From a bacterium (lineage in GTDB: Bacteria; SZUA-182; DTGQ01): a DNA stretch of 64,000 nt. Made by a program: the position numbers and the translations under genes. The stretch is taken from the NCBI GenBank assembly GCA_040755755.1, contig JBFLZW010000030.1:144991-208990 (forward strand), given 5' to 3'. Under the pieces are notes generated by a model, which did not search any database, had not been told where the DNA came from, and saw nothing but the letters and a program-made list of their open reading frames with translations. Positions 5,121-63,045 of this stretch are shown here, one piece after another. The stretch's first letter is position 1. Each line of letters opens with the position of its first letter.

Positions 5121-5177
5121 ATGAAAATAAAAAATGGATCACCGACGGCACAATATTCATTGAGAAAGGAACCCACA

Positions 5178-34228: not shown

Positions 34229-34966
34229 ATGACGGAAGATTATCGCAGCAAGGTCGCTTTAGTGATTGGCGGGAGCCGTGGAATAGGGCGGGCGATAGCA
34301 TTACGGCTGGCCCGGTCGAGCTTTGATATCTGGCTCGCTTACCGGGAGAATCATGAAGCTGCGCAGACAGTCAGGGCAGAAGTGGAACAGGCAGGCAGGC
34401 TCTGTGATCTGTTTTCCTTCGATGTCGCTAATTACGATGAGACAAAAGCCGCTCTGGGAGAAAAAGTGGAAGCGCATGCTCCCTCGGTGGTGGTATATAA
34501 TGTCGGTGTTGCCCGGGATAATCTTTTTATGTGGATGACAAAAGAGGAGTGGGACACGGTTCTTTCCACTAATCTTGACGGGTTCTATAATATCATGCAC
34601 CTGGTGCTCTTTCCCATGCTGCGTGAGAAGCAGGGACGCATTGTGGTTATATCTTCGGTCTCCGGGCAGATCGGGCAGGCAGGTCAGGTGAATTATTCCG
34701 CTTCCAAAGCCGGACTGATCGGTGCAGTCAAGGCCCTGGCCAGAGAAGTCGGAAAGAAAAATATCCTGGTCAATGTCGTTTCTCCGGGAATGATTGAAAC
34801 GGATATGACCAGGGAAATCCCCAAAGACAAAGTAATCCCCCTCATTCCATTACAGCGGTTCGGGACTCCGGAAGATGTGGCCTCGGTCGTTAACTTTTTA
34901 TGCACCGAAGAGCATATGTACATTCATGGTCAGGTTATCGGCATCAACGGGGGGCTGGCTATTTAG
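34229..34966 (+). CDS. 3-oxoacyl-ACP reductase (FabG-like, SDR)
   Basis: A 245-residue short-chain dehydrogenase that would reduce the beta-keto group of a growing ACP-bound chain with NAD(P)H. Cofactor motif GGSRGIGRA lies near residue 14, the NNAG-like motif is VYNVGVARDN, catalytic Ser is in ISSVSGQIGQ, the YSASK motif is complete (Tyr-Lys), and the end GQVIGINGGLAI is typical of FabG. The acidic-to-neutral change after the first strand (LAYREN) fits NADPH. It is the first gene of a closely packed run on this strand: the next start follows its stop directly. It resembles ApeQ of aryl polyene clusters in role. Confidence 0.9.
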   Translation: MTEDYRSKVALVIGGSRGIGRAIALRLARSSFDIWLAYRENHEAAQTVRAEVEQAGRLCDLFSFDVANYDETKAALGEKVEAHAPSVVVYNVGVARDNLFMWMTKEEWDTVLSTNLDGFYNIMHLVLFPMLREKQGRIVVISSVSGQIGQAGQVNYSASKAGLIGAVKALAREVGKKNILVNVVSPGMIETDMTREIPKDKVIPLIPLQRFGTPEDVASVVNFLCTEEHMYIHGQVIGINGGLAI

Positions 34967-36481
34967 ATGGAGCGCTATGATGACCTCGTCGTTGGCAGTG
35001 GGGTAAGCGGTATGACCATTGCTCTCCTTCTGGCCATGAATGGACACAAGGTCCTGCTCCTGGAAAAAAATCCTCACCTTGGCGGAGCGATGGCCAGGTT
35101 TTACAAACAGGGTATCCCGTTTGACATAGGATTTCATTTTACCGGAGGGCTTTCCGACAATGGGATCCTTCGCCAGATGCTTTCGGTCCTCGAAATCGAG
35201 GAAGATATCCACCCTGTATTCCTCCTCCATGAGAAAGCCAATCAGCTCGTTTTTGAAGCGGAACAAAATTCATACGAGATGCCGGCTGGAATACAGAATC
35301 TGCAAAGTAAGTTAAAAGGATACTTCCCTGACGAATGCCCGGCAATTGACCGGTATTTCGCTCTGGTACAGAAGGTTTGCAGGCAAACTGTTACTACTGA
35401 TTTAAGCAGGATTTCCCTGTCCCCGGATATGCTCGACGAAGATTTCATCAGCCTTGATCAGGTCCTGAACCAGTTAACTGACAATCAATCCTTAAAAGGC
35501 GTGTTATCGGCGTATTGTCTGTGCTACGGCGTGAAACCGCAGGAGGTCTCTTTTGCCAATCACAGCAGGATATGTCTGAATCAATATGAATCGATGGCCC
35601 GGGTTGAGGGGGGCGGAGATGCCTTTATTCAAGCCTTTGAGAAACAGTTTGCCCGCTATGATGTTGACATTATGAATAACAGATACCTGAGCGAAATGGT
35701 CGATATCAAAAATAATTCCGTTCAGCGGTTCGTTCTGAACACGGGAGAAGAAATAACCTGCAGCCGGTGTATTCTGACTATCCACCCCACGGAGATACTC
35801 AAGATACTGCCCCGGAAATATTTGAGCAAAGCCTTTATTGACCGGATATCGGCCTTTGAATCGTCAGCCGGATTTTTTTCGCTCTTCGGGGTCCTCCAGG
35901 CTGAGGGTCCTGAAGGTGAAAACAAAGATAATTTCCAGCCCTCGATTGTTACTCTTCTCCCATCCGGGGATTTGAATCAGATGCTCGATCCGGAATATTC
36001 CGGCACGCCTTCGTTGATTATCATGAAGTATCTGGAGGCAGTCAACGGGAAAACCTACCGGCTGGTAAGTGCCTTCGAACCATCTTTTTTCGAACATGCA
36101 GTTGCCTGGAAAGATTCACAAACCGGCAAAAGGCCTGCGGATTACCAAAAATACAAACAGCAGCGAATTGAGAGTATAACCGAGCGCATCCATAAATTCT
36201 ATCCGGAATTCAAAAACTCCCTTCAGGTGATGGATGCGGCTTCGATTTTGACCTACCGGGATTATCTGCATTCACCCGAGGGGTCAGCTTATGGCATAAA
36301 GCAAAAAGTCGGACAGTATAACCTTTTTGGAAGGCTTCACCTTCGCAACATCTACGTTGCCGGTCAGAGCGCCCTGTTACCCGGATTGGTAGGGGCAATG
36401 ATGTCATCGTTTATCATGGGCCGGGGCATAGTTGGCAAAGAAACATTCACCCGGTTTATCGAACAGAGATTATGCAATTGA
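34967..36481 (+). CDS. FAD-dependent oxidoreductase (phytoene desaturase/CrtISO-like)
   Basis: A 504-residue flavoprotein: dinucleotide motif DDLVVGSGVSGMTIALLLA near residue 5, then LLEKNPHLGGAMARF, and FDIGFHFTGGLSD, as in CrtI/CrtISO carotenoid enzymes and retinol saturases. The C-terminus has the FAD-clasp YVAGQSALLPGLVGAMMSSF. Such enzymes desaturate, saturate or isomerise polyene chains. Its position directly after FabG and before the KS points to modification of an ACP-bound or released polyene. It starts at the base following the FabG stop, and its end overlaps the KS start by ten bases. Confidence 0.85.
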   Translation: MERYDDLVVGSGVSGMTIALLLAMNGHKVLLLEKNPHLGGAMARFYKQGIPFDIGFHFTGGLSDNGILRQMLSVLEIEEDIHPVFLLHEKANQLVFEAEQNSYEMPAGIQNLQSKLKGYFPDECPAIDRYFALVQKVCRQTVTTDLSRISLSPDMLDEDFISLDQVLNQLTDNQSLKGVLSAYCLCYGVKPQEVSFANHSRICLNQYESMARVEGGGDAFIQAFEKQFARYDVDIMNNRYLSEMVDIKNNSVQRFVLNTGEEITCSRCILTIHPTEILKILPRKYLSKAFIDRISAFESSAGFFSLFGVLQAEGPEGENKDNFQPSIVTLLPSGDLNQMLDPEYSGTPSLIIMKYLEAVNGKTYRLVSAFEPSFFEHAVAWKDSQTGKRPADYQKYKQQRIESITERIHKFYPEFKNSLQVMDAASILTYRDYLHSPEGSAYGIKQKVGQYNLFGRLHLRNIYVAGQSALLPGLVGAMMSSFIMGRGIVGKETFTRFIEQRLCN

Positions 36482-37707
36482 AGCGAGTAGTCATAACAGG
36501 AGTTGGTGCAGTCTGCGGGTTAGGCCAGGACGTTCCCTCTCTTATCGAGGGAATCGAACAGGGGAAAAGCGCTGTTCGCTCCATGGAGGGATGGGACCGG
36601 TATAACGGCCTGCGCTGTCTGGTGGGGGCACCTTGTGAGTTGAAAAATGAGAAGGAAATCCCGCGGCAGTACCGGCGGCTGATGGGCAGGATGAGCATTT
36701 TTGCCGTACAGGCCAGCCAGCAGGCAATCGCTGATGCCGGGATACCACAGGAGAGCTTATCATCGGGACGGATCGGCTGCATCATCGGCTCGACTATGGG
36801 AAGCGCCGAGAGCCTGAACGAGGCATTTGAAATAATATTGCCGAACAAAGATCTGACTCAGTTAAAGTCGACCCAGTTTTTTCAATGTGTTTCCCACACA
36901 GCGACCATGAATGTATCCCGATATCTGGGAATTCATGGGTATGTTACCGCCACTTCGGCAGCCTGCGCATCCGCCCTGCAGGCCCTGGGAGCGGGTTACG
37001 ACCTGATCAGGCTGGGAAGACAGGAAGCCATGGTGTGCGGCGGTGCGGAGGAGCTCCATCCTACGGTAACCGGCTCTTTCGATGTCCTGGTTGCAACTTC
37101 GGCCCGGTATAACCATGCTCCTCATCAAACTCCCCGGCCCTTTGACAGCAAACGTGACGGCCTTGTCTGCGGTGAAGGAAGCGGCATGCTCCTTCTGGAG
37201 GAATATGAACGCGCACGGCAAAGAGGTGCCAGGATATACGCTGAAATCATCGGCTATAACACCAGTGGAAATGGAATCAATGTCAGCCAGTCCTATAAGG
37301 AAGCAATCGTCTCGTGTATGAGTGAGGCCTTACAAGACGCCTCTCTCACCCCACAGGATGTTGACTATATCAATGCCCATGCCACGGCAACCATCCAGGG
37401 AGATAAAGAAGAGGCCGAGGCGATCAGGGAGGTTTTCGGAAATTCCGTACCGGTAAGCAGTCTGAAGGGCTACTTTGGACATACCCTGGGGGCGTCAGGA
37501 TCGATCGAACTGATCGCCTCCCTGATCATGATGAAGAAAGGCAGGATTTATCCTACGCACAATCTGGAAACGGTCAGTCCGGAATGCGAGGGGATTTTTC
37601 ATGTACAGGAATGCCTGAACCGGGAGATCCGCGTCCTGCTCAAGAATTGCTTTGCCTTTGGGGGGATCAATGCTGCCTTGATCTGTAAAAAAGTGCCCTC
37701 TGAATAA
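36472..37707 (+). CDS. Beta-ketoacyl-ACP synthase II-type (KS 1)
   Basis: A 411-residue FabF/KS-alpha enzyme. All three catalytic residues are visible: the nucleophile in TATSAACASALQALG (Cys near residue 166), His in NAHATAT near 303, and His in KGYFGHTLGASG near 336. The N-terminal RVVITGVGAVCGLGQD and C-terminal NCFAFGGINAALI are standard. It would elongate ACP-bound chains by decarboxylative condensation. It overlaps the oxidoreductase gene by ten bases and is followed 21 bases on by an ACP. In aryl polyene logic it corresponds to ApeO or ApeR. Confidence 0.93.
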   Translation: MQLKRVVITGVGAVCGLGQDVPSLIEGIEQGKSAVRSMEGWDRYNGLRCLVGAPCELKNEKEIPRQYRRLMGRMSIFAVQASQQAIADAGIPQESLSSGRIGCIIGSTMGSAESLNEAFEIILPNKDLTQLKSTQFFQCVSHTATMNVSRYLGIHGYVTATSAACASALQALGAGYDLIRLGRQEAMVCGGAEELHPTVTGSFDVLVATSARYNHAPHQTPRPFDSKRDGLVCGEGSGMLLLEEYERARQRGARIYAEIIGYNTSGNGINVSQSYKEAIVSCMSEALQDASLTPQDVDYINAHATATIQGDKEEAEAIREVFGNSVPVSSLKGYFGHTLGASGSIELIASLIMMKKGRIYPTHNLETVSPECEGIFHVQECLNREIRVLLKNCFAFGGINAALICKKVPSE

Positions 37708-37728: not shown

Positions 37729-37980
37729 ATGACTGAGCAAGAAATAATCACCAAGGTAAACGAGGTATTTATCGAGTCGTTTGAAATAGCGCCGGAAAAG
37801 CTCCAGCCCCAGGTGAATATTTTTCAGGATCTGGGGCTGGATAGCCTTGATATTGTAGATTTGGTTGTGGCTCTGCAAAACAAGTTCAAGATAAAAATAC
37901 ACAATGATGAGCGGATGAGAGAAATCCGGACCCTGGAAGATATTCATCAGTTTGCCAAAAATATAGTTATTGACCGTTGA
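37729..37980 (+). CDS. Acyl carrier protein 1
   Basis: An 83-residue acyl carrier protein with the phosphopantetheine Ser in DLGLDSLDIVDLVVAL near residue 41, four-helix pattern, and acidic helix II (QNKFKIKIHND). AAAAAGGA precedes ATG. It would carry the growing chain for KS 1 and FabG. A second, different ACP is encoded on the other strand at 55551. No phosphopantetheinyl transferase is in the window. Confidence 0.93.
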   Translation: MTEQEIITKVNEVFIESFEIAPEKLQPQVNIFQDLGLDSLDIVDLVVALQNKFKIKIHNDERMREIRTLEDIHQFAKNIVIDR

Positions 37981-38015: not shown

Positions 38016-38768
38016 ATGGATGGCCTCAGCGTTATACTGTTAAACACCTTTTTTTATGGAGCGTTTCTCGTGTTTTCGGCAACGGTTATACCGCTTTTCA
38101 TCCTGTATCTTGCTCTTCTTTCGGTATTCATGTCACACCGCGGCATCATGAGACAGTTACGCCGTGCTATCAGTTGGTATGGTTTTATTATCATCAAGGT
38201 CTTTCCCTTTCCTTTTGCCCGGGTCCGGTACCGGGATTATGGAAAAGCCGATCCTGAGGGACCGTATCTTTTCGTCTGCAACCATCGGTCCGCTTCGGAT
38301 GCCTTTTTAATGGCCTGTTTGCCCTACGAATGTGTCCAGGTGGTAAACATCTGGCCGTTTCGGATACCGGTTTTGGGGACATTTGCCCGGCTGGCTGGCT
38401 ATCTCAGCATCAGAGAGATGTCGTTTGAGGAATTTTCCCGCAAATCGATCGATCTCCTCAACCAGGGAGTTTCCATCATTGCCTTTCCTGAAGGAACCCG
38501 TTCCGGGAGCAGCGTCATGAGGCCGTTTCACAGCTCAGTGTTCCGGGTCGCTCTCGAAGCCCGGTGCCCGATTGTGCCAATATGTATTTCCGGAAACGAA
38601 GACAAGCCCCATCGGGGCTCTCTCATACTTCATCCGGGAATAATCAGGATGCATAAATTACCAGCCCTGCCCTGGGAAAAATACAAAGATTTAACCTCGT
38701 TTAAGTTAAAAAACATGGTGCGGGACATTATTGCCCGGGAACTGGCTGGTATGGAGGGAAATAGATAA
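38016..38768 (+). CDS. PlsC-family 1-acylglycerol-3-phosphate acyltransferase-like protein
   Basis: A 250-residue membrane-associated acyltransferase. Two N-terminal helices precede motif I HX4D as NHRSASDAFLM near residue 90, and motif III IAFPEGTRSGSSVMRPF near 160; PIVPICISGNED is motif IV-like. It could transfer the product acyl chain to a glycerol-phosphate or other lipid acceptor, as ApeD is thought to do in aryl polyene clusters. Its stop TAA shares a base with the ATG of the ligase gene. Confidence 0.85.
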   Translation: MDGLSVILLNTFFYGAFLVFSATVIPLFILYLALLSVFMSHRGIMRQLRRAISWYGFIIIKVFPFPFARVRYRDYGKADPEGPYLFVCNHRSASDAFLMACLPYECVQVVNIWPFRIPVLGTFARLAGYLSIREMSFEEFSRKSIDLLNQGVSIIAFPEGTRSGSSVMRPFHSSVFRVALEARCPIVPICISGNEDKPHRGSLILHPGIIRMHKLPALPWEKYKDLTSFKLKNMVRDIIARELAGMEGNR

Positions 38769-40075
38769 TGACAGAGCTGTCCCGGTATCGGGAAATTTCG
38801 TTTTCCAGCCCGGAAGCGATACGAGAGGTGCAGGAGGGCCGGTTGCGAAAACATCTTGTTTATTGCCGTGAGCATTCCCCGTATTATCGAAGGGTGTTAC
38901 AAGATATTGACCTTGATTTTGAAAAGATAACCCTCGACCTGATATCCCGGCTTCCCTTCACGGATAAATCCGAGATCGAAAAATATAACCATGACCTGTG
39001 CGCAGTTGCCCCGGATAAAATCGTCGATATTGTCCTGTCCTCCGGAACAACCGGCAGCCCGACTCTGGTAATGTACACGGAGCATGATCTCAGGCGGCTT
39101 GCTTACAATGAGGAAATCTCCTTCCAGGGATGTGGAATGACCAGGGATGATGTGGTGCTGCTGACCTGTACCATAGACCGGTGTTTTGTGGCTGGTCTGG
39201 CGTATTTCCTGGGGGTGCGCAGTGTCGGGGCGGCAGCAATCAGGAGTGGCCAGAATAGTGTGGAAAGTCACTGGGAAATCATCAGGAGAATGAATCCTAC
39301 AATTATCGTTGGAGTCCCGACCTTTCTCAAGAAACTGGGCCTCTATGTGCAGGAAAGGGGAGTCGATCCTGGTCAACTCAGGGTATCCAAACTGATATGC
39401 ATCGGTGAGCCGTTACGGGATAAATATCTCAAGTTATTGAAGATCGGGGAAGATTTGGAAAAAATCTGGCAGGCTCAATGCTTTTCCACCTACGCTTCTT
39501 CGGAAGTGGTGACCACATTCTGCGAATGCAGTGCCCGGCAGGGAGGGCATCTTCATCCGGACCTGGCGGTTCTTGAAATCGTCGATGAAGCGGGCAGGGC
39601 AGTCCCTGCCGGAACTATCGGGGAGGTAGTGATAACTCCGCTGGCGGTTGAAGGAATGCCGCTGGTACGGTTTAAAACCGGAGATGTAAGCTTCCTGATC
39701 GATAAACCCTGCTCCTGCGGAAAAAACTCTCCCCGCCTGGGTCCGATCCTGGGGAGAAAGAAACAGATGATGAAGATCCGCGGGACCACCCTTTATCCCC
39801 AGGCAGTATATTCAGCCCTGGACGAAATCGAGGCGGTCGGTGAATATTATCTTGTCGTCAGCCGCGAGAGCAATCTGTCTGACACCATAACCATTTATGC
39901 GGCGGTCAACGACGCCTCATGTACGGCTGAGGTTATTCAGGACCGGCTTCAGGCACGGCTGCGGGTGAAACCGTCGGTGGTGATCGATTCTCCGGAAGCG
40001 GTACGGCAACAGGTGTTCAACCCGAAATCGAGGAAACCGATCCGGTTCCGGGATAAACGACAGGGGATGAAGTAA
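38768..40075 (+). CDS. PaaK-like adenylate-forming acyl/aryl ligase
   Basis: A 435-residue member of the phenylacetate-CoA ligase/coenzyme F390 synthetase family. The ATP loop is LSSGTTGSPTLVMYTE near residue 90, followed by the aromatic/Glu motif YASSEVVTTF near 245, and a zinc-like CSCGKNSPRLGPILGRK. The C-terminal domain carries MMKIRGTTLYPQAVY. It would activate a carboxylic acid starter, aryl or alkyl, for loading onto an ACP or CoA. This may supply the starter unit in place of the cinnamate ligase of aryl polyene clusters. It overlaps the acyltransferase by one base. Confidence 0.85.
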   Translation: MTELSRYREISFSSPEAIREVQEGRLRKHLVYCREHSPYYRRVLQDIDLDFEKITLDLISRLPFTDKSEIEKYNHDLCAVAPDKIVDIVLSSGTTGSPTLVMYTEHDLRRLAYNEEISFQGCGMTRDDVVLLTCTIDRCFVAGLAYFLGVRSVGAAAIRSGQNSVESHWEIIRRMNPTIIVGVPTFLKKLGLYVQERGVDPGQLRVSKLICIGEPLRDKYLKLLKIGEDLEKIWQAQCFSTYASSEVVTTFCECSARQGGHLHPDLAVLEIVDEAGRAVPAGTIGEVVITPLAVEGMPLVRFKTGDVSFLIDKPCSCGKNSPRLGPILGRKKQMMKIRGTTLYPQAVYSALDEIEAVGEYYLVVSRESNLSDTITIYAAVNDASCTAEVIQDRLQARLRVKPSVVIDSPEAVRQQVFNPKSRKPIRFRDKRQGMK

Positions 40076-40077
40076 CC

Positions 40078-41568
40078 ATGCAAACCTGCCCAAGCAAGAT
40101 TCGTAACTTTGAATTCAGCCGGGAAGAAATCGAAGAGGCAGTAAGAGCTGACCGGCTCCTTTCTCTGGAGATCGAATTCAGCCTGCGCTGCAATTTTCGC
40201 TGCTCGTATTGCTACCAGCCGGAAAGCTCTGTGTTCGAACATGAACTGACGGAAGAAGAAATCCGGGATGTTATTCTCCAGGCCAAAGACCTTGGAGCCA
40301 GAAAAATCGTTATCCTCGGCGGCGAGCCGATGGTCTATCCCCACATTCTCGAAGTAATTGCCTTTATCCGGCAGCAGGGTCTCGATATCGAGATGTTTAC
40401 CAACGGCTTTCAGATCACGGCTGCCGTGGCCGGGTATTTGTTCAACCATCAGGTCATGGTGGTCCTCAAGATGAATACTCATGATGAAAAGACCCAGGAT
40501 ATGCTGGCCGGGAAAAAGGGAGCCTACAAAATCATCCAGACTGCGTTTTTGCATTTGAAACAGGCAGGCTACCCCTCCGAAAAAGCTCCTCTGGCAGTCA
40601 GCACCATTATCTGCCGGCAGAATATCGATGATCTGGCAGGTATGTGGCAGTGGCTGCGAAATCAAAACATTATTCCCTATTTTGAAATGATTACTCCCCA
40701 GGGCAATGCCAGACAGAATGCATGGTTAGCGGTCGATTCAAAAAAAGTGTTTGACGTATTTCAGCAGATCGCCGACATCGACCGCCGTCAATATGGCCAG
40801 TGCTGGGACCCTCAGCCTCCTCTGGTCGGCAACAAGTGCCTGCGGCACCGGTTTTCCTGCCTGGTCAATTCGCAGGGGGATGTAATGCCCTGTGTCGGGG
40901 TGGGTATTCCTATCGGCAATATCCGGGAGCACAGGCTTTCCGATATCTTGCAGGGGAGTGAGGTTGTCCGGGACCTCAAAAACTTCCGTCACACCATCAA
41001 AGGCCCCTGCCGCAGGTGCGAAAAACTCGAGAGCTGCTACGGCTGCCGGGGGGCGGCCTATCAATTGACCGGAGATTATCTGGCCTCGGACCCCTTATGC
41101 TGGAAGAACGCCGACCGTCAGGATGAAATCGTTACCCTGCCGATATCGGCCCATGAGATTATCCCGCAGAAAGAACCGATGCGGGTCATCGATTCCCTGC
41201 TCAAATTGGGCGAGCGGACAGCGGAAGTTTCGGTAACTATCCGGGAAGATATGCCCGGGGTCGATGAAAACGGCATGATCGACCAGACCCTCTATCTTGA
41301 AATGATGGCCCAGGCCGTTGCAGCTCAAAAGGGATTCAAATACCTTGGCACATCTCAATCGCCGCCCGATGGATTTCTGCTGGGAGCCAGAAATCTGGAG
41401 ATTCTGGGGAGTGCCTGTGTCGGCGATACCCTGACCGTGATGGTAACCCAGTCTGTCCAGTATGGTGATTTTGGGCTGGTACAGGGCACCGTGGTGCGGG
41501 GCGGTCAGGTGCTGGCACGAGGGGAGATAAAGGTCTGGCAAAATACCAGTCAGGAGGCAGTTGCTTGA
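40078..41568 (+). CDS. Radical SAM-SPASM protein fused to a hotdog (dehydratase-like) domain
   Basis: A 496-residue two-part enzyme. Residues 1-345 are radical SAM with the [4Fe-4S] motif C38-NFR-C42-SY-C45, GGEPMVY and a SPASM-like Cys region (CLVNSQGDVMPC, CRRC...CYGCRG, LCWKN). From about 353 the fold changes to a hotdog domain (PISAHEIIPQKEPMRVIDSL, MMAQAVAAQKG, GARNLEILGSACVGDTL) like ApeP/FabA-type dehydratases. The hotdog HEIIPQKEPM has the dehydratase-like histidine. One chain would thus combine radical chemistry on an ACP-bound chain with dehydration or binding. It follows the ligase gene by two bases and its stop overlaps the LolA start (TTGA). Confidence 0.85.
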   Translation: MQTCPSKIRNFEFSREEIEEAVRADRLLSLEIEFSLRCNFRCSYCYQPESSVFEHELTEEEIRDVILQAKDLGARKIVILGGEPMVYPHILEVIAFIRQQGLDIEMFTNGFQITAAVAGYLFNHQVMVVLKMNTHDEKTQDMLAGKKGAYKIIQTAFLHLKQAGYPSEKAPLAVSTIICRQNIDDLAGMWQWLRNQNIIPYFEMITPQGNARQNAWLAVDSKKVFDVFQQIADIDRRQYGQCWDPQPPLVGNKCLRHRFSCLVNSQGDVMPCVGVGIPIGNIREHRLSDILQGSEVVRDLKNFRHTIKGPCRRCEKLESCYGCRGAAYQLTGDYLASDPLCWKNADRQDEIVTLPISAHEIIPQKEPMRVIDSLLKLGERTAEVSVTIREDMPGVDENGMIDQTLYLEMMAQAVAAQKGFKYLGTSQSPPDGFLLGARNLEILGSACVGDTLTVMVTQSVQYGDFGLVQGTVVRGGQVLARGEIKVWQNTSQEAVA

Positions 41569-42227
41569 AACAACAGGCAATAGTGTTCATGGTATGGTTT
41601 TTACTGTTCGGAATATGCCGCCTCAGTGAACCGGCAATGCAGGAAGCCGGTCGTCCGGATACGCCGCAAATCGTTACGATCCTGAAAAGGCTGGAAGGGA
41701 AAATGTCCGGCATAAAAACACTCAGGACCAGTTTCACTCAGGAGAAAAATCTCGCGGTTTTCGATCGCAAGCTCATCCTGAAAGGAACTATTTTTCTGCA
41801 AAAGCCTGATCTTTTCGCCTGGCATGTCAAAGATCCGGTCCGCTATTCCCTGCTCATAAAAGGCGGCGCAGTAACTCAATGGGATGAAGAGAGCGGGAAG
41901 GTCCAGCACATATCCCTGGCGAAGAATCCCGGATATCAAATTGTCACCCGGCAGTTGCAGGAATGGTTTTCCGGTACCTATACTTCACTGCTTGAGCACT
42001 ACGAGGTGAGGGTCCTGAATCATGATCCGGTTTGCCTGAAGTTCGATCCCCGCAAAGATGCCCTGGCCAGTAAAGCCATTACCAGTGTCACCGTTACCTT
42101 CGATAAGGATGAGCGCTACATTCAAACAATCTCCATCCAGGAAAAGAATGGAGATGGCACCCTCCTTACCTTTACCGATACTCAGCTCAATATTCCCATC
42201 GATGCCAGGGCCTGGGAGGTGAAATAG
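41565..42227 (+). CDS. LolA-like periplasmic lipid/lipoprotein carrier
   Basis: A 220-residue exported protein with a TTG start overlapping the previous stop. The N-terminal helix (AIVFMVWFLLFGICRL) is followed by the LolA pattern: LKRLEGKMSGIKTLRTSFTQEKNL, KGTIFLQKPDLFAWHVK, GGAVTQWDEESGKV, and a C-terminal SVTVTFDKDERYIQTISIQE. LolA folds carry hydrophobic acyl groups through the periplasm. In aryl polyene clusters ApeL has this fold and probably carries the product lipid. The MMPL exporter gene begins one base after its stop. Confidence 0.85.
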   Translation: MKQQAIVFMVWFLLFGICRLSEPAMQEAGRPDTPQIVTILKRLEGKMSGIKTLRTSFTQEKNLAVFDRKLILKGTIFLQKPDLFAWHVKDPVRYSLLIKGGAVTQWDEESGKVQHISLAKNPGYQIVTRQLQEWFSGTYTSLLEHYEVRVLNHDPVCLKFDPRKDALASKAITSVTVTFDKDERYIQTISIQEKNGDGTLLTFTDTQLNIPIDARAWEVK

Positions 42228-42228: not shown

Positions 42229-44640
42229 GTGTCTGACGGCTCTCTCTCACCTTCTCCCCGGATACAGAGAAGGAAATATCTGTTTCCTGGATTGATAGGG
42301 GTAATCATCCTTGCCTCGGCCCTTGGCCTGAGATCCATTTCCTTTGACAACAATGTGGAATCCATGCTTCCGGCAGATGAGGAAGTTGTTCGCTCCATCC
42401 GGTTTTTCAGAGAATCCGATCTTTCAGACAAGGTTTTCATCTCATTAGGCATAAAGTCTTCCGGCCATTCGACGAAGGAGCTCATTCAGGCCGTCGATCA
42501 ATTAGCCGCTTCTCTCAGGTCCCCCCTGGTGACCGAGGTGATGACCGGAGTGTCGGAAACCGAGATGCTTAGTGAGATCGATACCCTGCTGACAGGTTTT
42601 CCCCAGTTGGCCAGTCAAAAAGACCTCTGCCGCATCGATCGGTTGCTAACCCCCCAGGGAGTCAAAGACAGCCTGGCCAGGGATTTTCAGCACCTTTTAA
42701 CCCCTGCCAGCAGCTTCATGGTGCCCTTCATCCGCTCGGATCCTTTGGGGATAAAGGCCAGGGTACTGGGCAATCTCCGCACCCTTTATACCAGCCTGGG
42801 ATATGAAGTCAATCTCGAAGACGGGCACTTTATCAGCAAGGATGGAAGGCATGCCCTGCTCATCCTGAAAACTCCGGTAGTCCTTACCGACGGATTCGGT
42901 TCCCGGAAATTGCACGCCTTCCTGCTTGACCGCCTGAAGTCTTTGCCCGACTTTGTCTTCGCAGACATCGTGGCCGGGCACCTTCACTCCATAAGTAATG
43001 AAGATGTCCTGAAAAGAGATGTTCGCATCATGACCATTATAGCCTCGGTCGCTTTTGTGCTCTTATTCCTGCTCCTGTTCCAGGATATCAGAGCGATTGC
43101 TGTCTTTGTACTGCCCATGGCCGCTGTTCTTGTCGCTACCAGCCTGTCGTCGATGATATTCGATAAGCTCTCCTATTTAGTCATCGGCATGGGAGGAGTT
43201 GTTGTCGGGTTTGTCATAGATTATGGCATTTATGTGTATACAGCGGTTATTCGCACCGGCGACAACTCTGCGGCTATTGTTAAAAAGATAGCCGGGCCGG
43301 TACTCACCGGGGCACTGACCACGGTGGCCATTTTTATCGCCTTCTTCTTCTCCCATGTTCAGGGGTATTATCAGTTGGCCGCTTTCTCGATTATCAGCAT
43401 CACCCTGTGCATCCTGGGGTCTTTCTTTATCTTGCCGCATCTCCTTTGCGCTCACCATGACAGCAGGCTGTTAGCCGCAGTCAGAAGGAGCTCTCCTATC
43501 CGGCAGGTGGCCATATCGGATACCCGGAAAATTCTTTTCGGGGGAGTAATGATCATTGCCGCTCTCCTTCTCTGCTCGCGATTGACCTTCGATGCCGACA
43601 TCAGACAGTTCGATGGAAGTGATCGGAAGATTTCCCAGACTGAGGAGAAATTTCATCATATCTGGGGAGGAAAGGATGCCCCGGCGGTTCTGGTCGTGCC
43701 GGGGGAAAATCTGGAAGAAGCCCTGGAGCGGAACGAGCAGGTCTATCACCAGGCAGCGGGCCGGATAGGCGAAGATAATATTTCAAGCCTGGCTTTGCTC
43801 TGGCCATCGAGAAAAACCCGGCAGGAGAATGCAAACCGATGGGTCCGTTTCTGGAAACAGGGAAGGGAAGAAAAATTGAGAAATCTTCTTTCCGAATACG
43901 GCCAGAAGTATCATTTCTCGAAGGATGCCTTTTCTCCCTTCTTCGAGAGCCTGTATACAGGAGCGATTGTGGGGGATTTTACCCCCTTGCAGCGATTAAG
44001 AGATCGTTTTATCATGGAAGGAAAGGAAGGCAAGGATGGCTTCAGGGTATTGTCCTTTTTCCCGGATAAAGATCACTATCTCTCATCGCTCAAGGCCATA
44101 TGCAGCCGTTATCCGGGAACCTTTGTCGTGTCCCGGAAAAATCTTTCCCAGGCGCTTTCCCGGTCGGTCTTTTCCGAAACCGTTTATTTATCGGGCATTG
44201 CTGCCGTATTGGTTGCGGCCATAACCCTTCTTCTGCTGAAAAGCATCCGGCTGTCCATCCTGGCCCTTCTTCCCTCGGTCACGGGTATTGCGGTGGCTCT
44301 CGGCATCATGCCGCTTATGCGTTTACCCTTGAATGCGGCCAATATCATGGCTGCCATGATCGTGGCTGGCCTGACCAGCGATTATGGCATATTCATGGTC
44401 TATGCGTGCAAGTATCGATTAAATACCGGAACCCGGACAGCGATATCATTGTCGGCGATCACCACGCTGGTTGGTACCGCAGTATTGCTATTTGCCCGGC
44501 ATCCGGTCCTGTTTTCAATCGGATTGACCCTGACGGCAGGGGTGTTCCCAGGATTCATCTCCTCGATGATGATTGTCCCTGCCCTGTATGCCCAATGGAT
44601 TAAAGTGGAAAGGGAACCTTTGCCAGTATGCGGCCTCTGA
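42229..44640 (+). CDS. MMPL/RND-family lipid exporter
   Basis: An 803-residue inner-membrane transporter with GTG start. It has two homologous halves, each one helix plus a large periplasmic loop and a five-helix bundle (IMTIIASVAFVLLFLLLFQD, YLVIGMGGVVVGFVIDYGIY near residue 325, then TVYLSGIAAVLVAAITLLLL, NIMAAMIVAGLTSDYGIFMV near 705). The DYGIY and SDYGIF sequences are the MMPL/RND proton-relay region. It would lift the finished product lipid from the inner membrane to the periplasm, as ApeM does, handing over to the LolA-like carrier. It overlaps the lipoprotein gene by 13 bases. Confidence 0.9.
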   Translation: MSDGSLSPSPRIQRRKYLFPGLIGVIILASALGLRSISFDNNVESMLPADEEVVRSIRFFRESDLSDKVFISLGIKSSGHSTKELIQAVDQLAASLRSPLVTEVMTGVSETEMLSEIDTLLTGFPQLASQKDLCRIDRLLTPQGVKDSLARDFQHLLTPASSFMVPFIRSDPLGIKARVLGNLRTLYTSLGYEVNLEDGHFISKDGRHALLILKTPVVLTDGFGSRKLHAFLLDRLKSLPDFVFADIVAGHLHSISNEDVLKRDVRIMTIIASVAFVLLFLLLFQDIRAIAVFVLPMAAVLVATSLSSMIFDKLSYLVIGMGGVVVGFVIDYGIYVYTAVIRTGDNSAAIVKKIAGPVLTGALTTVAIFIAFFFSHVQGYYQLAAFSIISITLCILGSFFILPHLLCAHHDSRLLAAVRRSSPIRQVAISDTRKILFGGVMIIAALLLCSRLTFDADIRQFDGSDRKISQTEEKFHHIWGGKDAPAVLVVPGENLEEALERNEQVYHQAAGRIGEDNISSLALLWPSRKTRQENANRWVRFWKQGREEKLRNLLSEYGQKYHFSKDAFSPFFESLYTGAIVGDFTPLQRLRDRFIMEGKEGKDGFRVLSFFPDKDHYLSSLKAICSRYPGTFVVSRKNLSQALSRSVFSETVYLSGIAAVLVAAITLLLLKSIRLSILALLPSVTGIAVALGIMPLMRLPLNAANIMAAMIVAGLTSDYGIFMVYACKYRLNTGTRTAISLSAITTLVGTAVLLFARHPVLFSIGLTLTAGVFPGFISSMMIVPALYAQWIKVEREPLPVCGL

Positions 44641-45299
44641 TAATTATCATGGTATTCTTTATGGGATTGCTCGTGGGCGGCTGCGCCCGGACTCCTTTTC
44701 AACCGGCGTTGTGCCTGCCGGTTAAAGGGCTCGATCCCCGGGCAGTCCGGGAACAGTTTTCCCGGCTGATTCCGGAAAAGTTTCAGCTTGTCAACACCAT
44801 CGTTTTCACCTATGGTCAATACACCTTTTCTGCAATCGGGTATACGGATATCGATAGTCAAAAGAACGCCTTCACCGTGGCCGGTATCAATCCTCTGGGC
44901 GTAAAACTCTTTGAGCTTGCCGGTGACAGTCAGGGGGTCGAGTGCAGGTTTGCTCTCGAAGAGTTTGCCCGTCACGGGAACTTTGCTCAGGCCGTAGCCG
45001 ACGATATCAGGAGGATATATTTTGACCGCCTTCCCTCTCCCGAAGCCAGGGTGCGAAAAAAGAAATACCGGATCATCTTCCGGCAGCCGGGTACAGAAGG
45101 CACTCTGGAGTATGTTTTTGCCGGGGCCGATAACCTGCTGGTTGAAAAGAATTGTTATCAGGAGAATAATCGCCTGTGGAGTATTTCCTATTATGAATAC
45201 CAGCAAAAAGACGGGAAATTCCATCCAACCGGCATTATTCTTAACAATCATCACTATCATTATCGGTTAACTCTCCGATTAAAGGAAATCCGGTCGTGA
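44628..45299 (+). CDS. DUF3261-like outer-membrane lipoprotein
   Basis: A 223-residue lipoprotein with signal peptide and lipobox GLLVGGC at residue 20. The mature part (TIVFTYGQYTFSAIGYTDID, TVAGINPLGVKLFELAGDSQ) and later YRIIFRQPGTEGTLEYV match the DUF3261 pattern seen in aryl polyene clusters (ApeN-like). It probably receives the exported lipid at the outer membrane. It overlaps the MMPL gene by 13 bases and the dehydratase gene by four (GTGA). Confidence 0.78.
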   Translation: MRPLIIIMVFFMGLLVGGCARTPFQPALCLPVKGLDPRAVREQFSRLIPEKFQLVNTIVFTYGQYTFSAIGYTDIDSQKNAFTVAGINPLGVKLFELAGDSQGVECRFALEEFARHGNFAQAVADDIRRIYFDRLPSPEARVRKKKYRIIFRQPGTEGTLEYVFAGADNLLVEKNCYQENNRLWSISYYEYQQKDGKFHPTGIILNNHHYHYRLTLRLKEIRS

Positions 45300-45703
45300 A
45301 TAGACTGAGCGATGAAATTGAACACAGCATGTTTGGCCTGCGGGAGGGCTCCGAAGGCGTTATTGAAGCGCATTTTTCGTTTCCGCCGGAGTTCATCGGT
45401 TTTCAGGGCCACTTTCCCGGAAAGCCCATTCTTCCGGGTGTATGCAAAATTCAGGCAACCCTGCTGATTCTCAAGACCTGGAAAAGGAAAAAGGTTGCTC
45501 TGAAGGAAATCGTTCTGGCAAAGTTTTTTTCTCCCGTTACCTGCGGCCAGGAAGTGGTCTTTACCTGCCGGGAATGTAAGAGCGGTGGCAGCCGGGAAAC
45601 CCTGATAAAGGCCCTGGTAGAGAGTGAAGGGAAAAAAGTTGCCGAGCTGCATCTGAAAGTAGTTATTTCTCCTGAGGAGGGGGGCTCATGCATCGCAGAA
45701 TGA
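45296..45703 (+). CDS. Hotdog dehydratase (ApeI/FabZ-like)
   Basis: A 135-residue hotdog enzyme with the FabZ/FabA landmark FQGHFPGKPILPGVCKIQAT near residue 37, where His (GHFPG) is the catalytic base and the following helix carries the partner acid position (here replaced or shifted). It would dehydrate the 3-hydroxyacyl-ACP made by FabG, giving the conjugated chain. GTG start overlaps the lipoprotein stop. It overlaps the thioesterase gene by 16 bases. Confidence 0.85.
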   Translation: MNRLSDEIEHSMFGLREGSEGVIEAHFSFPPEFIGFQGHFPGKPILPGVCKIQATLLILKTWKRKKVALKEIVLAKFFSPVTCGQEVVFTCRECKSGGSRETLIKALVESEGKKVAELHLKVVISPEEGGSCIAE

Positions 45704-46170
45704 AATGCTATTTCGAGCGTGTTGCCGGAGCACCTGACCCTCTGGTGTTTCGCCTGAAAAGACGGGTGAGGTTCAGCGAGGTTGACGTTATGGGGATAAG
45801 CTGGCACGGGAGATACCCGGTGTACTTCGAGGAAGGATCGGCTGAGCTTGGCAGGCGCTGCGGCCTTTCCTATCAGGATTTCTATGAGGCAAACATCCGG
45901 GCCCCGATTGTGCAATTGCATATCGATTATCACCGCCCCCTGTACCTCGATGAGGAATTTACCATCGTGGCCTCGTACCTGTGGAGCGAAGGTGCCCGGC
46001 TGAATACTGAATACTCGCTGATCAAACAGGAGGGGAGCGTCGCTGCAAGCGGCTATACCGTCCAGATGTTTATCGACAGCGTCAGCCAGGAGCCGTATCT
46101 CATTTCCCCGGACCTTCTTGAGCGGTTCCGCAGACGATGGCAGGCAGGAGAATTTGCATGCCTCACCTGA
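45688..46170 (+). CDS. Acyl-CoA/ACP thioesterase (YbgC/ApeK-like, 4HBT)
   Basis: A 160-residue 4-hydroxybenzoyl-CoA thioesterase-like hotdog protein. Family run RFSEVDVMGISWHGRYPVYF near residue 27, with the Asp-x-Met-Gly-x-x-x-His region in place, then APIVQLHIDYHRPLYLDEEF. It would release chains from ACP or CoA, or correct mis-loading. AGGAGGGG precedes ATG, and it overlaps the following KS gene by 13 bases. ApeK has the same fold and place in aryl polyene clusters. Confidence 0.85.
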   Translation: MHRRMKCYFERVAGAPDPLVFRLKRRVRFSEVDVMGISWHGRYPVYFEEGSAELGRRCGLSYQDFYEANIRAPIVQLHIDYHRPLYLDEEFTIVASYLWSEGARLNTEYSLIKQEGSVAASGYTVQMFIDSVSQEPYLISPDLLERFRRRWQAGEFACLT

Positions 46171-47291
46171 AAGCACTGGCCGTGGCCAGTGATCTGGTCA
46201 CTCCCTACGGATGGGGCATTGAAGCCTGCTGGCAGGGGCTTTTGTCCGGCAAGACCGCCATCCGGCCCCTGGAACGCTTTTCCACCGGGCACTTATTGAC
46301 CGGCAAAGCAGCCACCATACCGGGCCTGAAGGTAATAAGCCCGGATGAATCACTGGTAATGCAGATGCTGACTCCTCTTCTGAGAAAGGCATCCGGCCTT
46401 ATTCCTGCGGACGCTCTGGTGATACTGGCAACCACCACCGGAGAGATAGACTTTCTGGAACGGTCGGTTATCGAGGGAAGGGCATCGGCCGGGGAGAGCC
46501 GTTTGGATTGCCTGCTCGGTAAAGTGGTGCAATTGGCCGGATCAGCCAGACCGGGAATAATCATTTCGGCAGCCTGTGTTTCGTCGAGTACCGCCATTGC
46601 CCGGGCAGCCTCCCAGATCCGGGATGGTGTGGATGATTGCCTGCTCGTTGTGGCCTGTGACAGTGTGAGTGAGTTTGTCATGGCCGGGTTCTCCACCCTG
46701 ATGGCCCTGGACAAAGACATGGCCCGGCCCTTTGACCAAAACAGAGGAGGCTTGAGCCTCGGTGAGGCAGCCGGATTTATCTTACTGATGAGCGAAGAGC
46801 GGGCCATGCGGGAAAACCGGCCGGTTATCGGAGAAATCGCCGGTTGGGGATTGACCAGTGATGCCAACCATATGACCGGACCTTCGCGGGATGGCCGCGG
46901 GCTGGCCCTGGCTGTTGAAAAAGCCCTCCGGTCAGCCGGGCTCCCTGACGATAGTGTGGGATCCATAGCTGCACATGGTACGGGAACGGTGTATAATGAC
47001 GCTATGGAGATGAAAGCCTTCAAAAGGATTTTTACAAATCAGGCCATTCCGACTTACTCCATCAAAGGCGGAACAGGACATACCCTGGGAGCCGCAGGTC
47101 TGGTGGAAGCGATTGTCGCATTTCGGTCCTTGCAGGAAAAGGTTATCCCCCCTACGGTAAATATGCGCTGCGTCGATGAAGAAGCCAAAGGCTGGGTTTC
47201 CCCGCAGCCGCAGCCGTTCAACGGGCAGGTAACGGTTTCCACCAACTCCGGATTCGGAGGCTTGAATGCCGCCCTGGTGCTTAAAGTATAA
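46158..47291 (+). CDS. Beta-ketoacyl-ACP synthase (KS 2)
   Basis: A 377-residue KS. Catalytic set: nucleophile Cys in ISAACVSSSTAIARA near residue 140, His in AAHGTGTVYNDAME near 275, and His in KGGTGHTLGAAG near 306. The N-terminus (MPHLKALAVASDLVTPYGWG) is shorter than KS 1 and the central helix differs, so the two are not recent duplicates. ATG 46158 has GGAG nearby; the in-frame ATG at 46137 lies deeper in the upstream gene. It would serve a different chain length or step. The plus-strand run is interrupted after this gene by the ATPase/PIN-like pair. Confidence 0.9.
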   Translation: MPHLKALAVASDLVTPYGWGIEACWQGLLSGKTAIRPLERFSTGHLLTGKAATIPGLKVISPDESLVMQMLTPLLRKASGLIPADALVILATTTGEIDFLERSVIEGRASAGESRLDCLLGKVVQLAGSARPGIIISAACVSSSTAIARAASQIRDGVDDCLLVVACDSVSEFVMAGFSTLMALDKDMARPFDQNRGGLSLGEAAGFILLMSEERAMRENRPVIGEIAGWGLTSDANHMTGPSRDGRGLALAVEKALRSAGLPDDSVGSIAAHGTGTVYNDAMEMKAFKRIFTNQAIPTYSIKGGTGHTLGAAGLVEAIVAFRSLQEKVIPPTVNMRCVDEEAKGWVSPQPQPFNGQVTVSTNSGFGGLNAALVLKV

Positions 47292-49121: not shown

Positions 49122-49431
49122 GGGAGAGAGGGATGCAGTGTGGGTGGGTGCGTATTAATCATGGATACCAGGGGTTTTTATATAAGGGAAAAAACAATTA
49201 ATTCAAACTCTCGAAAAGGTTGCATTGGCTTTAGGCAAGAGGTTGAAAATAGAGTTAACATAAACAGGTAAAATATCCCCCATTTCTCTCGATCGAGAGG
49301 AGGACGGTAACAACCATCACCCCCACCCAGCATCCCCCCTCAAGGGGGAGGGAGAAGAGTGGATGTCTTTCCTCAAGGGGGATAATGGATGCTCCTATAC
49401 AAGACGAAGAAGAATCGGCGAACGAGCAGTC
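49122..49431. other. Gap between the ATPase/PIN pair and the half-KS gene
   Basis: About 310 bases containing a 111-bp repeat element at 49274-49384; nothing else is recognised. It may mark the right edge of the inserted ATPase/PIN-like unit and must hold the promoter for downstream genes if the insertion is polar. Confidence 0.5.
49274..49384. repeat. GC-rich palindromic repeat, copy 3 (111 bp)
   Basis: Ends TATCCCCC (49274-49281) and GGGGGATA (49377-49384) are perfect inverted repeats. The centre holds CCCCCTCAAGGGGG, with C- and G-rich tracts like the other copies. Confidence 0.6.
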
Positions 49432-50100
49432 ATGATTGACATTCCCGGTATCGGCTGGATTACAGCGAAAGAATACGGCTGCGTGGCCCAAAATATAAGC
49501 CGGACGCTCCCTCCAATGAAATCGATACACGGCCAGTTGTCGAATGAGGGCATATTTTTGTATCCGGTAAAATATTTTGGCAGATTCGACGCGGTTTCCA
49601 AAATGACGTGCTGTGCCATAGCCCTGGCTCTGCATGATGCCGGATTGGTCTATTCCGAAGATCGGAAGCAGGACATGGGCATTGTCGGGACCAATGAGCG
49701 GGGCTCCCTGGAATCGAACATCAGCTATTTCCAGGATTACGTAGAATCAGGCAGGACATTGGCACGGGGAAATCTCTTTCTCTATACCCTCTCCTCAAGC
49801 CCGTTAGCTGAAGCAGCAATCTATTTTGGCTGTCAGGGGCCGGTATTGTACCTGGGCTTTCAGCGCCAGGATATCTCTTCGCTGCTGTCGTGTGCAGGGC
49901 ACATGCTCTGCAGTGAAGGAGTTTCAGGGATGCTGGCAGTAGCGGCGGATGAAGAAGAGGCTGTCTGTTTTTGTATGCAGCCAAAAGAAGCGGATCCGAT
50001 GAGAAGGGGGTTCGGATTTGAGAACATCAAGGATATAGTAGAAAAAACAACCAATATAAATCAAGTAATAGATAGAGCACGGTGGCTTTCCCGCTCATGA
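49432..50100 (+). CDS. Chain-length-factor-like half ketosynthase (Ketoacyl-synt_2 type)
   Basis: A 222-residue protein matching only the N-terminal half of a KS (DIPGIGWITAKEYGCVAQN, SKMTCCAIALALHDAGLVY, VGTNERGSLESNISYF, LYTLSSSPLAEAAIYFGCQG). At the nucleophile elbow it reads VLYLGFQRQDIS, so the catalytic Cys is absent. Half-length KS-like proteins of this kind (ApeC) pair with a full KS and set chain length in aryl polyene systems. ATG 49432 begins near the family start, though no strong ribosome-binding site precedes it, and an earlier in-frame ATG at 49363 lies inside the repeat. It is likely a pseudo-enzyme partner of KS 1 or KS 2. Confidence 0.7.
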   Translation: MIDIPGIGWITAKEYGCVAQNISRTLPPMKSIHGQLSNEGIFLYPVKYFGRFDAVSKMTCCAIALALHDAGLVYSEDRKQDMGIVGTNERGSLESNISYFQDYVESGRTLARGNLFLYTLSSSPLAEAAIYFGCQGPVLYLGFQRQDISSLLSCAGHMLCSEGVSGMLAVAADEEEAVCFCMQPKEADPMRRGFGFENIKDIVEKTTNINQVIDRARWLSRS

Positions 50101-50131: not shown

Positions 50132-51409
50132 GTGAAAATAAAGCTGATTTATCCGAAATGGCCAAAATTAAGCAACCAGACGGAGTTTAATTTACCGCCT
50201 CATGGGCCGGTGTGTCTGGCGGCGGCAGTGAGTGATGACATAGAGATTTCCTTTTGTGACGAACATGTGGAACCCCTGGATTACACCGATAACGATGCAG
50301 ACCTGATAGCCCTGTCTGTCATGCTGACCTGTCAGATCCCCCGCGCTTTCGAGATAGCTGACTGGTACCGTGCGCAGGGCAGGCCGGTTATCTTTGGCGG
50401 CATTGCTGCCATGCTTCATTCCGAGGAAGCAATCTCCCATGCCGATGCTGTCTTCTTAGGTGAGGCAGAGGGTCATTTTAACCAGGTGATTGAAGATTTC
50501 CGTCGCGGCGAGTTGAAAAAGGTGTATGATTTTCTCTCGGATCACCCTGATACGGCATTGATAGGAACTGCCCGGCGCGATATTCTGAAACGGGAGCGGT
50601 ATAATTTCCGGGGCATCCAGATGGTTGACCTGGTACATGCCTCGCGGGGATGCCGGTTTAATTGCTTTCCCTGCTGCACGCCGTATCTGGGTGGCCGGAA
50701 ATTCAGGCCGCGCCCTCTTGAGGCCGTGGTCAGGGAATTAGAAAGTATCGATAACAACCGTTTGTTCTTTGTTGATAATTCGCTGGCCCAGGATGACGAA
50801 TGGGAAAAGGCCCTGTTCAAGGCCATTGCACCCTTGCGGAAGAAATGGATATCTCACCCGATCAAGGACGACGATGAAATCCTGGATCTGGCCGTACAGG
50901 CTGGCTGCTGGTATGTGTATCAGGCCATTGTGGATACCTCGGACCACATTCGCCGGAGAGTCCAGCGATTGAAAGAGCGCGGGATCGGAGTCGAGGGAAC
51001 GATTATCCTGGGGCTGGATTCCCATGACGAAGATTCCATTAAGCGTCTGGTGGATTTTCTCCTCGAGATCAATCTGGACCTGGCCGAATTCACTATTCTT
51101 ACTCCCTTTCCCCATACTCCGATCAGGGATCAGTTAGCAAGGGAAAACAGGATACTCCACAATGACTGGAGCCGGTACACTACCGGGGAGGTCGTCTTTC
51201 AACCGGCCAGAATGAGCATCAGCTCACTCCAGCGCATGTATGAATATGCCTGGGAGACTTTTTACAGCAACGTAAGCCAGGAAATGCAGATGGCGAAATT
51301 ATTCCTGAAGGTCATCGAAAAAGAAAAACTCGATGGAACCTATAAGCGGGTCCCGTTGAGCTCCAATCGCTCGTGGTCTTCATCCGGGAGGGAAAACGCA
51401 AGATCATGA
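50132..51409 (+). CDS. B12-binding-type radical SAM protein 1
   Basis: A 425-residue protein with GTG start. An N-terminal cobalamin-binding-like Rossmann region (KIKLIYPKWPKLSNQTEFNL, VIFGGIAAMLHSEEA, VFLGEAEG) precedes the radical SAM core with SRGCRFNCFPCCTPYLGG near residue 175, giving CX3CX2C. Class-B enzymes of this build methylate unreactive carbons or do ring chemistry. The canonical DxHxxG cobalamin motif is not evident, so B12 may not be bound. It lies 31 bases after the half-KS gene and overlaps the next radical SAM gene by four bases (ATGA). Confidence 0.85.
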   Translation: MKIKLIYPKWPKLSNQTEFNLPPHGPVCLAAAVSDDIEISFCDEHVEPLDYTDNDADLIALSVMLTCQIPRAFEIADWYRAQGRPVIFGGIAAMLHSEEAISHADAVFLGEAEGHFNQVIEDFRRGELKKVYDFLSDHPDTALIGTARRDILKRERYNFRGIQMVDLVHASRGCRFNCFPCCTPYLGGRKFRPRPLEAVVRELESIDNNRLFFVDNSLAQDDEWEKALFKAIAPLRKKWISHPIKDDDEILDLAVQAGCWYVYQAIVDTSDHIRRRVQRLKERGIGVEGTIILGLDSHDEDSIKRLVDFLLEINLDLAEFTILTPFPHTPIRDQLARENRILHNDWSRYTTGEVVFQPARMSISSLQRMYEYAWETFYSNVSQEMQMAKLFLKVIEKEKLDGTYKRVPLSSNRSWSSSGRENARS

Positions 51410-57252: not shown

Positions 57253-57258
57253 GATTCT

Positions 57259-59089: not shown

Positions 59090-59209
59090 TAAATACGCGG
59101 CCGGTTAAAGCCGCCCATTCACTCCCTATCCCCCCTGTGGGGGGAGAGAGCTGGGGTGAAGGGGCGTCGTTGAACCAAACCGGCCGGGTAATTCCCGCGT
59201 CGTGTACTA
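59075..59209. repeat. Palindromic repeat element, copy 4 (MITE-like, about 135 bp)
   Basis: Imperfect 33-bp terminal arms (AGTACACG 59076-59083 and CGTGTACT 59201-59208; GGCCGGTT 59099-59106 and AACCGGCC 59178-59185) flank a GC-rich core like copies 1-3. It fills the space between the BtrH-like gene and the toxin-antitoxin-like pair, carrying the annotated ATG of one and the stop of the other. Confidence 0.65.
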
Positions 59210-59847: not shown

Positions 59848-59866
59848 TTGCCTTCCTCCAGCCTGG

Positions 59867-60274: not shown

Positions 60275-60300
60275 GAATTACCCCCCTGCAGTTACTTTCA

Positions 60301-61452: not shown

Positions 61453-61468
61453 ATTTACAGAATTCCCT

Positions 61469-62767: not shown

Positions 62768-63045
62768 CAAAAGAAACCTGCCTTGAAATCTGTTATGGAG
62801 AACTGATGCCTGCCGCTGCTCATCGGGTGAGCAGGTTGAGGTAATAATATAAGAACTAAGCTCTTGTGTCAATGATGGAAAACAGGTGATTTGATCGCCT
62901 CCCTCAAACATAAGAAAGGAGGTAAGTGGCAGTATATGAGGGTGTAAATGAGCACGGGGGCAGGATTGCCTTTCCCTATTTGCTGCTCAACTTCCTGGTC
63001 ATAGCGGTTTTCAGTTGAGTCAGTCTAACTGGGACACATTAATTC

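Follow-up and report, generated by a model that had tools for sequence, protein, structure and literature searches.

The closest described relatives of the locus analysed here are systems of the aryl-polyene/flexirubin-like type and the 'ladderane-like' gene clusters known since 2009. With regard to the latter, Rattray 2009 (PMC2649909) describes, in K. stuttgartiensis and D. psychrophila, clusters that combine radical SAM genes with genes for phytoene-dehydrogenase-like proteins and phenylacetyl-CoA ligases, reports similar clusters in Geobacter, and considers them candidates for the formation of ladderane or polyunsaturated lipids; according to the same text, D. psychrophila yielded no ladderanes. 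Moreover, as reported in PMC4790861, E. coli expressing the anammox candidate genes formed no new fatty acids, and PMC9902471 places 'ladderane' clusters of the Cariaco Basin in many non-anammox phyla. The aryl polyene cluster of E. coli also contains LolA, an exporter, a DUF3261 protein, a thioesterase and the ApeI/ApeP pair (PMC8253772). For one aryl polyene cluster, in which ApeI is fused to ApeH, the dehydratases are reported to be ApeI/ApeP heterodimers with only one active site (PMC8041823).

The new element of the present locus is a fusion of a radical SAM enzyme with an ApeP-like hotdog domain, encoded in a stretch of 64,000 nucleotides that was analysed as a whole and is referred to below as the window. 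Searches on radical SAM enzymes with hotdog domains, or with flexirubin or aryl polyenes, returned nothing on this enzyme from a largely open-access literature, and within it no characterised enzyme of this domain order was found, in agreement with what the initial annotation had supposed. Likewise, the accessible parts of the ladderane-cluster papers (PMC2649909, PMC9902471) do not mention a radical SAM-hotdog fusion.

The fusion protein and its gene cluster

From the letters of the window alone, the initial annotation had read one uninterrupted frame that joins C38, C42 and C45 and a SPASM-like cysteine region to a hotdog domain beginning near residue 353, and this reading was borne out in all its parts. 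The open reading frame occupies exactly the positions given for it in Table 1. The Radical_SAM profile scores 74.5 bits against a Pfam cut-off of 29.5, which places the protein in the superfamily, and the SPASM profile scores 40 bits against 21.5 over residues 254-315. Membership of a named NCBIfam radical SAM family was rejected, as none reaches its cut-off on the protein; the closest, AhbD, NirJ2 and PqqE, stay far below (126 against 500 bits for AhbD).

An AlphaFold2 model of the full chain, built on an alignment of 49 fused homologues, is confident over both domains, with a mean pLDDT of 91.4 and a pTM of 0.89. In structure comparisons, residues from about 23 to 345 match SuiB, SkfB, anSME and PqqE (Z 23-26), and residues 354-496 match 6qsr_B, the ApeP chain of the ApeI:P complex, over 141 residues at 23% identity (Z 19.8), followed by many FabZ structures, the anammox-specific FabZ among them. 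Foldseek also aligns it with ApeP (E 3.4e-10, TMt 0.80), and by sequence profile 6qsr_B is again the best PDB hotdog match, at profile positions 357-491 (E 4.1e-15). The Pfam model for ApeP-like proteins, PF22817, recognises residues 361-494 with an E of 2e-4, which is below its gathering cut-off of 27 bits (21.3 bits within the whole chain, 25.1 as an isolated domain). The domain has the ApeP fold, and ApeP is its nearest solved relative. The two checks proposed with the annotation, namely structure prediction of the full chain and profile comparison of the hotdog part, consequently agree on an ApeP-like hotdog and not on the absence of a match; since structural alignment puts the domain at residues 354-490, the boundary at 353 was off by one or two residues at most.

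Table 1. Features of the window discussed in the text, with position, strand and supporting evidence
Feature	Position	Strand	Evidence
FabG-type ketoreductase (ApeQ/FlxB-like)	34229..34966	+	
CrtI/CrtD-like flavoprotein	34967..36481	+	
Ketosynthase 1 (KS1)	36472..37707	+	
Acyl carrier protein (ACP)	37729..37980	+	PF00550 E 9.4e-10
PlsC-type acyltransferase	38016..38768	+	PF01553
FlxY-like acyl-CoA ligase	38768..40075	+	NF053551, 471 bits, cut-off 520
Radical SAM/SPASM-ApeP-like fusion protein	40078..41568	+	496 aa, uninterrupted ORF
Radical SAM core, residues 32-186	40171..40635	+	Pfam PF04055 E 1.4e-20
CX3CX2C [4Fe-4S]/SAM motif, C38 C42 C45	40189..40212	+	conserved 49/49
SPASM region, C254 C261 C272 C311 C314 C320 C323 C341	40837..41100	+	PF13186 E 4.7e-10
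ApeP-like hotdog domain, residues 354-490	41137..41547	+	6qsr_B profile E 4.1e-15, Z 19.8
Dehydratase half-site E408-x3-Q412	41299..41313	+	both residues 49/49
LolA-type carrier	41565..42227	+	PF03548; NF053544 LolA2_flexi 94 bits, cut-off 125
RND/MMPL-type exporter (ApeM-like)	42229..44640	+	TIGR03480, TIGR00921, below cut-off
DUF3261 LolB-like protein (ApeN-like)	44628..45299	+	PF11659 E 1.6e-8
ApeI-like hotdog, proposed heterodimer partner	45296..45703	+	PF07977 E 8.4e-7, PF22818 E 1.8e-4
GHFP motif of ApeI-like protein, His half-site H39; FabZ Glu position is Gln53	45407..45418	+	
4HBT thioesterase (ApeK-like)	45688..46170	+	
Ketosynthase 2 (KS2)	46137..47291	+	
Small conserved cluster gene, adjoins KS2 in relatives	49363..50100	+	synteny
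B12-binding radical SAM protein	50132..51409	+	
TIGR04072 'lipid biosynthesis B12-binding/radical SAM protein' (rSAM_ladder_B12)	51373..52773	+	626 bits, cut-off 360
Family 2 glycosyltransferase (GT2) with DUF2062	52763..54001	+	
Lipid A-type acyltransferase	53901..54920	+	PF03279
Dialkylresorcinol-linked module: ABC permease, ABC ATPase, DarH acyltransferase	55924..59089	-	
StlD/DarB-family ketosynthase and B12-radical SAM protein	60301..62911	-	

The fusion gene is tightly packed within an operon, starting 2 nt past the end of the FlxY-like ligase gene and overlapping with its stop the LolA start by 4 nt. The same neighbours recur elsewhere: among 52 fused loci, the nearest cluster gene is the FlxY-like ligase upstream in 43 and LolA downstream in 49. 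More generally, an order of about 17 genes (FabG, CrtI-like, KS1, ACP, PlsC, FlxY, radical SAM-hotdog, LolA, MMPL, DUF3261, ApeI, thioesterase, KS2, small gene, B12-radical SAM, TIGR04072 B12-radical SAM, GT2) is kept across phyla in most loci with long enough contigs, with ApeQ-, ApeK-, ApeL-, ApeM-, ApeN- and ApeI-like genes in conserved order. The cluster contains the core set of aryl polyene and flexirubin systems, i.e. KS, ACP, FabG, ApeI/ApeP, thioesterase, LolA, exporter, DUF3261 and CoA/ACP ligase, and its flexirubin equivalogs score below their cut-offs (FlxB with 292 against 340 bits; FlxY and LolA2 as in Table 1). The product of the small gene has no Pfam or NCBIfam match and looks like a ketosynthase N-terminus by inspection only. 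Between KS2 and this gene, which adjoin in relatives, lies a plus-strand module at 47343-49121 of an AAA ATPase and a small protein, matching the PADLOC candidate defence system PDC-M07A/B with 575 and 172 bits; it looks like a defence-type module inserted into the biosynthetic cluster. Elsewhere in the window, a plus-strand gene at 5121-10382 encodes, as judged by inspection only, a large secreted protein of 1753 aa that has LVIVD-like repeats and ends in a dockerin-like part.

About 17-20 kb beyond the fusion gene, on the minus strand, DarH (NF053550, 447 bits against 300) and a ketosynthase of the StlD/DarB subfamily (NF005293, 558 bits against 450; the narrower DarB model stays below its cut-off with 477 against 550) belong to a module whose gene order over 55924-62911 is conserved in two other loci (L104 and L105). 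The module recurs with this order close to the same cluster, within one contig, in a genome from a Nitrospirae-labelled record (G712, the genome of locus L041), and on a separate short contig in a relative of the window's genome (G705). The proximity of DarB and DarH points to a flexirubin-like product. As DarB occurs in 4 of 25 carriers and most others have none, a flexirubin-like ester is likely for a subset of carriers only, and gene content suggests an aryl-polyene-like lipid as the common denominator of the fusion clusters. The B12-radical SAM protein of the module is HpnR/BchE-like, with scores below the cut-offs, and might take over a resorcinol tailoring step under anaerobic conditions.

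Conservation and spread of the fusion

Over the whole chain, 48 further homologues share 41-67% identity with the fusion protein. In the 49 aligned fused proteins C38, C42, C45, C254, C272, C311, C314, C320, C323, C341, E408 and Q412 are invariant; seven of the SPASM-region cysteines are thus present in 49/49, and C261 in 47/49. About 50 genomes of the GTDB set, mostly of uncultured bacteria, encode the full-length architecture, under many phylum labels (Nitrospirota, Omnitrophota, Thermodesulfobacteriota, Deferribacterota, Verrucomicrobiota, Lentisphaerota, Kiritimatiellota, Hydrogenedentota and others), which are those of the MAG records and may be imprecise. In particular, it is found in four of the nine genomes examined from the window's own small phylum. 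A local frameshift or an assembly fusion was rejected on the basis of these loci; the conservation of the fusion is far beyond chance, and the fusion is no local accident.

The two halves are also found apart. Specifically, the family is present in 14 of 295 sampled Nitrospirota genomes, 11 of these 14 carrying the fusion over its whole length, and in 23 of 395 sampled Desulfobacterota genomes, nearly all with the radical SAM part alone. Twenty unfused rows, mainly from Desulfobacterota, form a supported clade of the tree (99/94), and the unfused genes of Desulfobacterota loci lie in other gene contexts. In one cluster (L059) a radical SAM protein of 383 aa and an ApeP-like hotdog of 146 aa (135.7 bits) are separate genes, and no further stand-alone hotdog was found beside the other unfused loci in flanks of up to 10 kb. 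The retention of the whole fusion in most Nitrospirota carriers and under many phylum labels suggests selection for the joined parts; the existence of the radical SAM domain without the hotdog indicates that their coupling is not obligatory, and the separate genes of L059 support a functional link for which physical joining is unnecessary.

A single clean fusion event is not supported, as five label changes have to be placed on the tree, and supported branches force at least four of them; of the five, one concerns a row truncated at a contig end (L088) and another a distant paralogue (L013), whose long branch makes the rooting of the tree by it unreliable. This paralogue (G000:C66:9758-10801) is a SPASM protein that is 34% identical and is encoded in the same genome as the window, in unrelated surroundings, and beside it lies an ORF resembling, by inspection only, a SAM-methyltransferase with an FHA-like end. 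A query with hydrazine synthase alpha, an anammox marker, had no match in eight carriers, nor in any control.

Complementary half-sites and the possible role of the radical domain

Dehydratases of the FabZ type require a His plus a Glu or Asp. The hotdog of the fusion holds the dehydratase Glu, E408, within the motif LEMMAQA in 49/49 sequences, and across the same 49 homologues no His is conserved in residues 380-419, the region of the FabZ GHFP motif. FabZ and FabA carry both residues on one chain and the fusion has E408 only, so that a self-sufficient FabZ-type dehydratase was rejected. The ApeI-like protein of the same cluster carries the other half: in its homologues the His of GHF(P/E) is present in 34/34, and the Glu position is Q in 33/34 and M in 1/34. 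Its first profile matches are 3esi_A and 6qsr_A, i.e. ApeI (E 2.8e-9 for 6qsr_A), and its AlphaFold2 model (pLDDT 90) is a hotdog for which Foldseek returns FabZ structures and 6qsr_A. The half-sites are complementary, with Glu in the fusion and His in the ApeI-like protein, and as for ApeP one half-site is accompanied in the same cluster by an ApeI partner with the other. Of the role foreseen by the initial annotation, the assignment to a dehydratase type within an ACP-dependent acyl or polyketide cluster held. The role itself was refined, for the hotdog is neither a dehydratase complete on its own nor a passive holder, and carries only the Glu half.

With good confidence, the fusion hotdog is predicted to supply the Glu side of a heterodimeric dehydratase of the ApeI:ApeP type. 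From these residues we infer a heterodimer in which the two proteins would form a single composite site, and this site would remove water, in every round of extension, from the 3-hydroxyacyl-ACP that FabG has produced. The complementary loss of residues would correspond to the ApeI/ApeP arrangement, with the ApeP half relocated onto a radical enzyme.

With regard to the radical domain, the SPASM cysteines are spaced CX12GX4C...CX2CX5CX2C, the last step being one residue shorter than the usual consensus, and the eight of them may serve as ligands for two auxiliary [4Fe-4S] clusters, as in anSME. Fully ligated auxiliary clusters accompany net oxidations in several known SPASM enzymes, and for this reason an oxidation of the chain or of its aryl end is proposed, as a tentative guess from the cysteine pattern. 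As for the substrate, in one locus (L068) an unfused radical SAM gene follows ACP, KS and PlsC genes, a run that makes an ACP-bound or freshly transferred acyl group the most economical choice; we infer an acyl-ACP substrate, and the putative action on an ACP-bound intermediate of the pathway is rather probable. The run itself (L068:2852-6383), parts of which recur in L070, L061 and L090, is possibly a minimal version of the pathway. In Desulfatitalea-type loci (L071:13211-20696, minus strand) a cluster of thioesterase, two KS, ApeI-like and TIGR04072-like genes converges on the unfused radical SAM gene, and also carries another, weak radical SAM protein and a protein of 365 aa that neither Pfam nor NCBIfam recognises.

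On balance, we lean slightly towards a bifunctional protein that would unite one half of a heterodimeric dehydratase with a radical domain acting on an ACP-bound pathway intermediate. The pathway would be a type II polyketide pathway of the aryl-polyene/flexirubin-like kind, probably run without oxygen. The radical SAM/SPASM domain would reductively cleave SAM and abstract a hydrogen atom from the very ACP-bound chain that the hotdog site dehydrates, or from its aryl end; the extra electron would pass to the two auxiliary clusters, with a net oxidation of the chain by dehydrogenation or a similar reaction, and the fusion would hold the radical enzyme at the dehydratase, where acyl-ACP docks. 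It is conceivable, though doubtful, that the family at large oxidises ACP-bound (aryl)polyenoyl chains without oxygen, by a radical reaction not described so far, and that this replaces in anaerobes the oxygen-dependent steps of flexirubin and aryl polyene synthesis.

A first alternative is that the joining reflects convenience of gene order, the hotdog being an ordinary ApeP half and the radical domain working on another step or molecule, e.g. the aryl starter that FlxY activates, or the completed lipid, with no shared substrate. The unfused radical SAM proteins of Desulfobacterota in their other contexts, the separate halves in L059 and a fusion gene that in most clusters immediately follows the one for the FlxY ligase are in its favour; it is nevertheless rather unlikely, as the full fusion persists in 11/14 of the Nitrospirota family carriers and under so many phylum labels. 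Ladderane-like or polyunsaturated hydrocarbon lipids, with the fusion as a radical desaturase or cyclase of fatty acyl-ACP, would fit the score of rSAM_ladder_B12 and the clusters that PMC2649909 reports from K. stuttgartiensis, D. psychrophila and Geobacter. Against this stand LolA, DUF3261, the MMPL-type exporter, the ApeI/ApeP pair and the FlxY-like ligase, which make up the aryl-polyene/flexirubin set, the adjoining DarB and DarH, and the negative results in D. psychrophila and E. coli cited at the outset, and we regard this reading as improbable. Lastly, a non-catalytic docking domain that merely positions acyl-ACP for the radical domain would account for a hotdog that on its own lacks the catalytic His, but is very improbable in view of a dehydratase Glu and Gln kept in 49/49 and of the His-bearing ApeI-like partner in the same operon.

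Comparison with known systems

The bifunctional reading concerns a widespread and conserved enzyme architecture in a type of cluster noted since 2009 as 'ladderane-like', whose chemistry has had no assignment. Because the composite site is predicted to pair E408 with His39 of the ApeI-like protein, the dehydratase part can be tested directly, and the fusion narrows the radical step down to an intermediate that is probably close to the polyene dehydratase. Should this step oxidise the ACP-bound chain, it would provide a new way of making polyene or aryl lipids anaerobically.

The radical part shares its core fold, the CX3CX2C motif and the SPASM cysteines with SuiB, SkfB, anSME, PqqE and AhbD, whereas no peptide, PQQ or haem context is found here. 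With flexirubin clusters the locus has in common FabG, the FlxY-like ligase and the LolA2-like protein, with DarH and StlD/DarB nearby; it differs in that FlxY and LolA2 are below cut-off and in the three radical SAM enzymes of the polyene part, which to our knowledge are not known from flexirubin clusters. A radical SAM enzyme, a phytoene-dehydrogenase-like protein, a phenylacetyl-CoA ligase, FabG, FabF paralogues and a glycosyltransferase also occur in the FASII/'ladderane-like' clusters of K. stuttgartiensis and D. psychrophila in Rattray 2009, while the words fusion and hotdog are absent from that paper (PMC2649909).

The closest likeness is with the ApeI:ApeP complex (PDB 6QSR), which has the same hotdog fold and conserved EMMAQA helix, and complementary half-sites on two chains whose genes lie in one cluster. 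In contrast, the ApeP half is here the C-terminus of a radical SAM/SPASM enzyme, below the Pfam cut-off for ApeP, and the Glu position of the ApeI chain is Gln, while it is Asp in 6QSR chain A. The ApeI-ApeH fusion of Acinetobacter (PMC8041823) provides a precedent for a dehydratase half joined to another enzyme of the pathway; there, however, it is the other half, ApeI, that is fused, and its partner is an acyl-ACP synthetase without radical chemistry.
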